This document shows, in pieces, positions 38,153 to 58,831 of a stretch of DNA of 64,000 nucleotides. The stretch spans positions 62,001 through 126,000 of the forward strand of contig CANPXH010000002.1 in NCBI GenBank assembly GCA_947585865.1, given 5' to 3'. The notes beneath the pieces were generated by a model. The model was not told the DNA's origin. It did no database searches and worked only from the letters and a program-made list of their open reading frames with translations. Made by a program: the position numbers and the translations under genes. How positions within the stretch are numbered: the first letter of the stretch is position 1; every line of letters begins with the position of its first letter. The DNA comes from an uncultured Clostridia bacterium. GTDB taxonomy: Bacteria > Bacillota > Clostridia > Lachnospirales > CAG-274.

Positions 38153-38436
38153 GGACTGCATACCTGCAGTCCTTTGTTGCGTGTCGATAAAATCGACACG
38201 CTTGAAAGAAATGCTAACATTTCTTTCAGTTGAATTAAGGTAGGAACCAGCCGTGTTTTCCGCAATTTAGGCACAAGTGCCTAAATTACAGAAAAGTTCC
38301 TGTCCTCAGGCGGGCAAAGCTCGCCTTGCGGATTATAGTCTGCGACGCTTTTTTGCAAACTGTTCTTTACTTAAAATTCATATTTTCTGTCAAAATATTG
38401 TTTTTCGACAGTTCGAGGACTGCATACCTGCAGTCC
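38153..38436 (+). repeat. Structured repeat element, copy A (284 bp)
   Basis: Non-coding element with a partner at 58512-58797 in reverse orientation. Order: hairpin GGACTGCATACCTGCAGTCC (38153-38172); stem GCGTGTCGAT/ATCGACACGC (38179-38201); stem GAAAGAAATG/CATTTCTTTC (38204-38227); a large hairpin GGAAC..GTTCC (38243-38300) with inner stem AATTTAGGCAC/GTGCCTAAATT; a variable stem (38308-38326); GGATTATAGTCTGCGACGC and a T-run; an A/T-rich part; and a second, identical copy of the first hairpin (38417-38436). The region 38179-38306 matches the partner at about 95% by hand alignment. Either terminal hairpin followed by TTT could terminate divIC. No reading frame of note. Confidence 0.9.
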
Positions 38437-58511: not shown

Positions 58512-58797
58512 ACCAACGCTTATTGCGTTGGTCTAAGACTGTCAAAAAACAATATTTTGAGAGTAAATATGAAATAAAATAAAGAACAGCTTGAAAAAAA
58601 GCGTCGCAGACTTTAATCCGCAGGAGGAATTCACTTCCTCCGAGGACAGGAACTTTTCTGTAATTTAGGCACTTGTGCCTAAATTGCGGAAAACACGGCT
58701 GGTTCCTACCTTAGCAAAACTGAAAGAAATGCAAGCATTTCTTTCAAGCGTGTCGATTTTATCGACACGCTGTAAGACCAACGCAATAAGCGTTGGT
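58512..58797 (-). repeat. Structured repeat element, copy B (286 bp)
   Basis: Reverse-orientation partner of 38153-38436. Read on the minus strand, the part from GCGTGTCGAT to CTGTCCTC is almost identical, the variable stem has a different sequence but the same pairing (GGAGGAA/TTCCTCC against AGGCGGGC/GCTCGCCT in copy A). The terminal hairpins are arms ACCAACGC and GCGTTGGT (58512-58532 and 58777-58797), unrelated to those of copy A. Here the loops are TTATT and AATAA, so the two ends form inverted repeats, whereas in copy A they are direct. The element lies between aroK and carD, which converge on it. No gene inside. Confidence 0.9.
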
Positions 58798-58831
58798 CTT
58801 TGATCGATATTTGTTATTTTCGCTTTTAGTT

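Follow-up and report, generated by a model that had tools for sequence, protein, structure and literature searches.

A small IS1182-type MITE that duplicates terminator-like hairpins and carries stems maintained by two-sided changes

The repeat and its IS1182-type ends

The window, that is, the whole stretch of 64,000 nucleotides analyzed here, contains only two copies of a repeat of about 235 bp. Copy A (38177-38415, + strand) has the divIC gene on one side and a gene for an AP-endonuclease-2-like TIM-barrel protein on the other, and copy B (58535-58772, - strand) adjoins the shikimate kinase gene. The two copies and their parts are as follows.

38153..38172, + strand: terminator-like hairpin GGACTGCATACCTGCAGTCC downstream of divIC, left member of the duplicated pair flanking copy A; G001 and G003 have a single hairpin at the orthologous site
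38177..38415, + strand: copy A, a complete IS1182-type MITE
38177..38191, + strand: left terminal inverted repeat of copy A, consensus CAGCGTGTCGATAAA, compared with IS1182 ends
38401..38415, - strand: right terminal inverted repeat of copy A, minus-strand consensus CAGACTGTCGAAAAA, 15/15 identical to the IS1182 element end in L182
38179..38201, + strand: hairpin 1 of copy A, overlapping the left terminal repeat; loop inverted in 3/67 copies
38202..38229, + strand: hairpin 2 of copy A, differing in sequence between genera with pairing retained
38238..38306, + strand: central arm of copy A, with AGG/CCT and GGAAC/GTTCC helices and a one-sided 8-nt bulge
38256..38295, + strand: central hairpin on the central arm of copy A, with several whole-stem alleles
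38308..38326, + strand: covarying 19-nt stem of copy A, allele AGGCGGGC-AAA-GCTCGCCT
38327..38348, + strand: near-invariant block TGCGGATTATAGTCTGCGACGC of copy A, containing a 5-bp hairpin
38417..38436, + strand: right copy of the duplicated hairpin at copy A
58535..58772, - strand: copy B of the MITE
58776..58798, - strand: left flanking hairpin of copy B, loop TTATT
58623..58641, - strand: covarying 19-nt stem of copy B, allele GGAGGAA-GTGAA-TTCCTCC
58601..58622, - strand: near-invariant block of copy B
58512..58533, - strand: right flanking hairpin of copy B, with arms as in the left one and an inverted loop (AATAA)

The repeat contains no transposase ORF. Its ends read CAGCGTGTCGATAAA and, on the opposite strand, CAGACTGTCGAAAAA; the latter matched the end of the IS1182-family element in L182 at all 15 positions and was close to the ends of other IS1182 copies. 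Short, lacking a transposase gene, bounded by IS1182-like ends and flanked by a target-site duplication, the repeat is a MITE of the IS1182 type. A search of the source genome with the MITE ends for an autonomous copy revealed one IS1182 copy. Framed by CAGTCTGTCAATAAA and CAGTCTGTCAAAAAA, this copy encodes an IS1182-family transposase of 475 aa (NF033551, E 1e-124, above the cut-off). The other left-end-only matches were considered as longer elements and rejected, being truncated copies. Retrotransposition, considered for the one-ended truncation, was set aside, as a DDE transposase accounts for both the terminal inverted repeats and the target duplications.

In stretch L061 (G000:C1:107800-110400), an IS1182-family IS and a MITE copy lie side by side at one terminator. 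The hairpin ACCGCCGCATTATAAATGCGGCGGT stands there three times: to the left of the IS, between the IS and the MITE copy, and to the right of the MITE. The IS1182 ends of relatives, such as CAGACTGTCGAAAAA in L182, abut hairpins that differ in sequence, and among the IS1182 copies with both ends recovered, only the copy of the source genome shows a duplicated hairpin. A transposase match was present in 18/48 genomes of the bacterial family, many of the copies being broken, and was absent from G001 and G004, both of which are rich in MITE copies; mobilization in these two genomes may therefore be past or may have proceeded via an IS outside the sequences examined.

When the source genome (2.58 Mb, 81 contigs) was searched by BLAST with the repeat and its near flanks, 57 matches resulted, several being partial or reverse matches of palindromes; this genome contains 31 core-bearing copies, including A and B, plus truncated ones. 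In left-end-only copies of this genome (L033, L035 and L037-L040), the break falls beyond hairpin 2 at an almost constant position. Some of them continue with a residue of the target hairpin from the right-hand side, which would fit a recurrent type of deletion. The repeat was detected by DNA search in 24 of 61 genomes, the source genome counted. A covariance model found it in 32 of the 48 genomes of the bacterial family, in 10 of 11 genera and in none of the 8 genomes of genus g6; within the order, 13/116 genomes carry it, seven of them belonging to families f16 and f17. Upon exact search of named genomes with the conserved block, assemblies of Clostridia, Eubacteriales and Bacillota were among the matches listed. 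A repeat copy also lies near 782-803 of the viral-classed contig IMGVR_UViG_3300035512_000922 (L332).

Target hairpins, their duplication and empty sites

The flank comparison comprised the 75 copies with two recovered ends and no fewer than 40 bases on either side (L001-L032 without L017, L024, L027 and L029, L042-L051, and L101-L160); it excluded L161-L180 and any copy that lacked an end or had too short a flank. A direct repeat with a score of at least 14 was shared by both flanks in 56/75 copies, whereas 0/1479 shuffled flank pairings (20 rounds) matched. We found that 52 of the 56 flank repeats fold as a hairpin (-5 kcal/mol or lower) and that the repeats range from about 20 to 45 bases in step with the size of the hairpin. 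The MITE thus lies between two copies of a hairpin that was its target. A T tract after the hairpin or an A tract before it was present in 33 of 51 flank repeats, counted under a scoring slightly different from that giving the 52 hairpin repeats, which indicates that most target hairpins are terminator-like. When inverted repeats were counted too, 63/75 copies had matching flanks (55 direct, 5 inverted, 3 equal), and in the remaining 12 no repeat of either orientation reached the threshold. These 12 copies would be expected if unrelated intergenic repeats lay between two pre-existing terminators and the flank repeats were not target duplications. We consider this explanation extremely unlikely, as flanks match within a copy only, and orthologous unoccupied sites hold one terminator, which refutes it for copy A.

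As evident from the sister species G001 and G003, the site of copy A contains a single terminator and no element in both. G004 carries a different MITE variant at this site, flanked by a duplicated hairpin of its own and apparently inserted independently at the terminator of the same gene. In this stretch (L211), upstream of the AP-endonuclease gene, the variant has a different central arm, and the hairpin sequence is other than that of copy A. The stretch examined in G002 showed neither a single terminator nor the element. An unoccupied site was also sought for copy B; the neighbors were too diverged, and G003 has one unrelated hairpin there. In family f16, the same hairpin duplication was present in L371, L373 and L375, and the other 17 stretches from f16 and f17, among which the anchor was not found in L370, L377 and L383, gave no clear duplication; the flank repeat of L387 just reaches the score, and not as a hairpin.

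Judging from these sequences, we propose that this MITE of about 235 bp is non-autonomous and that IS1182-family transposases would mobilize it in trans. Such a transposase would target an intrinsic-terminator hairpin, probably extruded as a cruciform; the 3' ends of the element would be joined to the hairpin at both of its 5' feet, and subsequent gap repair would place one whole hairpin on each side. Such joining followed by gap repair would yield a target duplication as long as the hairpin, and the upstream gene would retain its terminator.

IS1272, a member of the IS1182 family in staphylococci, is described in the relevant passages of one report as targeting hairpins, including terminators, and removing part of them, with no duplication (PMC4923244). 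In the cruciform model for IS1272, joining at the 5' feet (pathway b) would duplicate the whole stem-loop; in the literature searched, we found whole-stem-loop duplication only as this drawn alternative, and we noticed no actual example of pathway b in the Discussion of that paper (PMC5678879). According to the pertinent parts of both papers, the present MITE resembles IS1272 in its IS1182-family ends and transposase and in a target set by hairpin structure, often that of a terminator, and not by sequence (PMC4923244, PMC5678879); the folding of 52/56 flank repeats and the tract in 33/51 fall under this pattern. In contrast to IS1272 and TnSha1, whose stem-loop is said in the same parts to be removed or replaced without target duplication, the present MITE duplicates the whole hairpin, so that a stem-loop stands on both of its sides (PMC4923244, PMC5678879).

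MITEPye1 from Paracoccus yeei is likewise short, non-autonomous, intergenic and foldable, with IS1182-type ends; as far as the portions of the report on this element go, it differs in being 159 bp long, in having 1-3 copies per chromosome and in its 4-bp direct repeats, and neither a hairpin target nor covariation is reported in them (PMC11578231). The pneumococcal BOX, RUP and SPRITE elements are also interspersed small structured repeats, and SPRITE is terminator-like; going by their description in the relevant sections, they are set apart from the present MITE, whose terminator belongs to the target and not to the repeat (PMC10969869). In the literature searched, which covered few subscription journals, we found no report of a MITE or IS duplicating whole terminators. 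According to reviews, direct repeats in the IS1182 family vary in length; IS databases may therefore already contain repeats as long as a hairpin that have drawn no comment.

Covariation of the inner stems

The 19-nt stem forms a hairpin in both copies, while 13 of its 19 positions differ between them; copy A has 8 pairs, including one G-T, and a 3-nt loop, and copy B has 7 pairs and a 5-nt loop. A preliminary description of this DNA had noted that the stem sequence changes with pairing and length kept, which was borne out, and had counted 13 differences among 24 bases, where the correct count is 13/19. The identity it reported over the preceding 70 bases is in fact slightly longer, at 72 bases ending in CTGTCCTC, and 9 bases after the stem are also identical. 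Among 28 aligned copies of the source genome, the stem occurs as two main alleles, AGGCGGGC-AAA-GCTCGCCT and GGAGGAA-RTGAA-TTCCTCC. Discrete alleles, combined differently among copies, likewise exist for the central hairpin, for the hairpin 2 loop and for extra hairpins that are optional. The contrast between copies A and B is therefore a swap between alleles that are each common to many copies of the genome, and not 13 independent events. Extra hairpins were observed within the 19-nt stem or at GCGA/CGC in L012, L017, L030, L031, L044 and L011, and identical inserts of this kind recur in different copies and species.

In an alignment of 27 copies, drawn from 35 core sequences (L003, both sequences of L011, L013, L015, L021, L022 and L044 were left out), the covariation score was 0.233, compared with 0.089 in shuffles; 0/500 shuffles reached it, and slid partners gave at most 0.065. 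Two-sided changes were found at 20/50 pairs. An alignment of 97 copies, which was made by the covariance model and thus leans towards structure by construction, gave a score of 0.232 versus 0.087 in shuffles and at most 0.058 with slid partners, and two-sided changes at 28/50 pairs. The base pairs of the repeat are maintained by two-sided changes, and the covariation is real and above chance. In particular, such changes are also present in the GGAAC/GTTCC helix, which has an asymmetric bulge and two arms separated by tens of bases, and the 22-nt near-invariant block shows no drift within the bacterial family.

The stem alone could be compared at equal length, with no fitted alignment, in 35 distinct forms; these were pre-selected as 19-nt hairpins between fixed anchors with one of two loop classes, and not for pairing, so that the constancy of stem length and loop is partly due to the selection of forms. 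Further copies had been named in the preliminary description as the test of whether the stem is maintained, and they agree with it: in these forms, which come from three families of the order, 94.3% of the cells over 7 pairs are paired. Two-sided changes occur at 7/7 pairs, and the score is 0.792, compared with 0.316 in shuffles and at most 0.254 with slid partners. The count of pairs with a two-sided change, reached by 71/500 shuffles, and the number of pair types, reached by 409/500, were not in excess.

Template switching, strand preference and the role of the interior

The preliminary description took the covariation as a sign of selection on the structure of RNA or single-stranded DNA. 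The two-sided changes in many copies, genera and families sustain the covariation itself; selection as its sole cause does not follow, since template switching between the arms of a palindrome also restores pairing, and the inverted loops of neighboring hairpins fit such switching. Inverted loops were found for hairpin 1 in 3/67 copies, for the central hairpin in 5/49 loops and for the flanking hairpins in 5/63 pairs, the right-hand flanking hairpin of copy B being one of them, and probably result from DNA template switching between the arms of a palindrome. Because the repeat copies share ancestry, these counts, and those on strand and wobble below, are no probabilities. In the parts of two papers that bear on this point, template switching is described as homogenizing arms and inverting spacers (PMC8604942) and as able to create and maintain RNA hairpins with multibase compensatory changes (PMC8794818).

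Mutation might even have sufficed without selection, through arm-to-arm template-switch repair of palindromes together with gene conversion of whole hairpin alleles. The inverted loops inside and beside the element, the near absence of one-sided intermediates at most polymorphic pairs (97 copies), the reassortment of discrete alleles among the copies of one genome and the multibase changes described in the cited passages (PMC8794818, PMC8604942) are consistent with this explanation. We nevertheless regard it as doubtful, as the 35 stem forms keep 19 nt, two loop classes and one orientation across families (length and loops being pre-selected), two-sided changes reach a helix with distant arms and an asymmetric bulge, and the 22-nt block does not drift within the family. 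Additionally, the loop of the 19-nt stem was inverted in 0/108 cases, and this fixed orientation favors a strand-specific constraint.

We also examined which strand the fold would favor. Polymorphic pairs contained G-U 5 times and A-C 9 times, a count that omits the fixed non-Watson-Crick columns 71/171, 73/169, 74/168, 194/271 and 280/291 as well as the weak outer pairs 48/187 and 49/186; over all columns, the counts were G-U 139 and A-C 168, and the fixed wobbles may reflect shared ancestry. TPP riboswitches of the same bacterial family, used as a yardstick, gave G-U 19 and A-C 2 at variable pairs (cells and not events, and few pairs). Among the distinct stem forms, A-C mismatches outnumber G-U, which argues against plus-strand RNA. 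The whole element had the better folding energy on the plus strand in 40 and on the minus strand in 53 of 93 copies; the stem plus block folded better on the plus strand in 91/92 and the central arm on the minus strand in 82/87. In the window, 38238-38306 and 38308-38348 likewise have opposite strand preferences in folding energy. As to an RNA of the plus strand only, which was considered, the stem and block agree with it and the central arm disagrees.

An RNA function of the interior is possible, and the MITE could carry a putative structured non-coding RNA with a host role of its own. Such an RNA would fit the strong two-sided covariation, the near-invariant block, the z-scores for folding (-7.2 on one strand, -9.1 on the other) and the presence of the repeat in 32/48 family genomes and two further families. 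We think a host role unlikely, however, as the wobble counts and the total energy show no strand preference, genus g6 has no repeat in its 8 genomes, and the orientation to genes is balanced (of 38 copies, 11 were co-directional, 10 antisense, 13 convergent, 3 divergent and 1 undetermined). This lack of orientation bias also disfavors a cis role as a 3' UTR element. The covarying multi-stem fold resembles Rfam RNA families; unlike them, the element is covered by no family at gathering score, and permissive scans gave only chance-level hits. A side match to the S10 leader in L053 is unrelated.

Taken with the flank and stem comparisons above, the reading that we find probable is an IS1182-mobilized MITE that targets terminator hairpins and duplicates them, with inner stems kept paired by both selection and template switching. 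Its interior is a string of palindromic modules, which would stay paired as one folded strand is selected and template switching probably copies arm onto arm. The 19-nt stem and the following block, with their fixed loop orientation, are the most constrained part; their most likely role is that of a folded single strand, of RNA or DNA, in the spread of the element itself. Only tentatively, we suggest that the 19-nt hairpin with its two loop classes forms, together with the TGCGGATT...GTCTGCGACGC block, a cofactor specific to one strand, either RNA or single-stranded DNA, which the element would require for movement or for finding terminator hairpins and which is kept in at least three families of Clostridia-type bacteria.

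The covariation is well supported; its carrier is an IS1182-type MITE that duplicates the terminator on which it lands, and dozens of insertions with two empty sites provide natural evidence that an IS1182-type element duplicates a whole stem-loop. A terminator that is duplicated and not destroyed would explain how such elements fill a genome without read-through harm. Covarying arms and inverted loops occur together in one element, so that selection can be separated from template switching copy by copy; the repeat family thus offers a clean natural case for testing to what extent covariation is proof of RNA. If the cofactor reading is true, this would be a hairpin-seeking transposon whose own hairpins belong to its machine.
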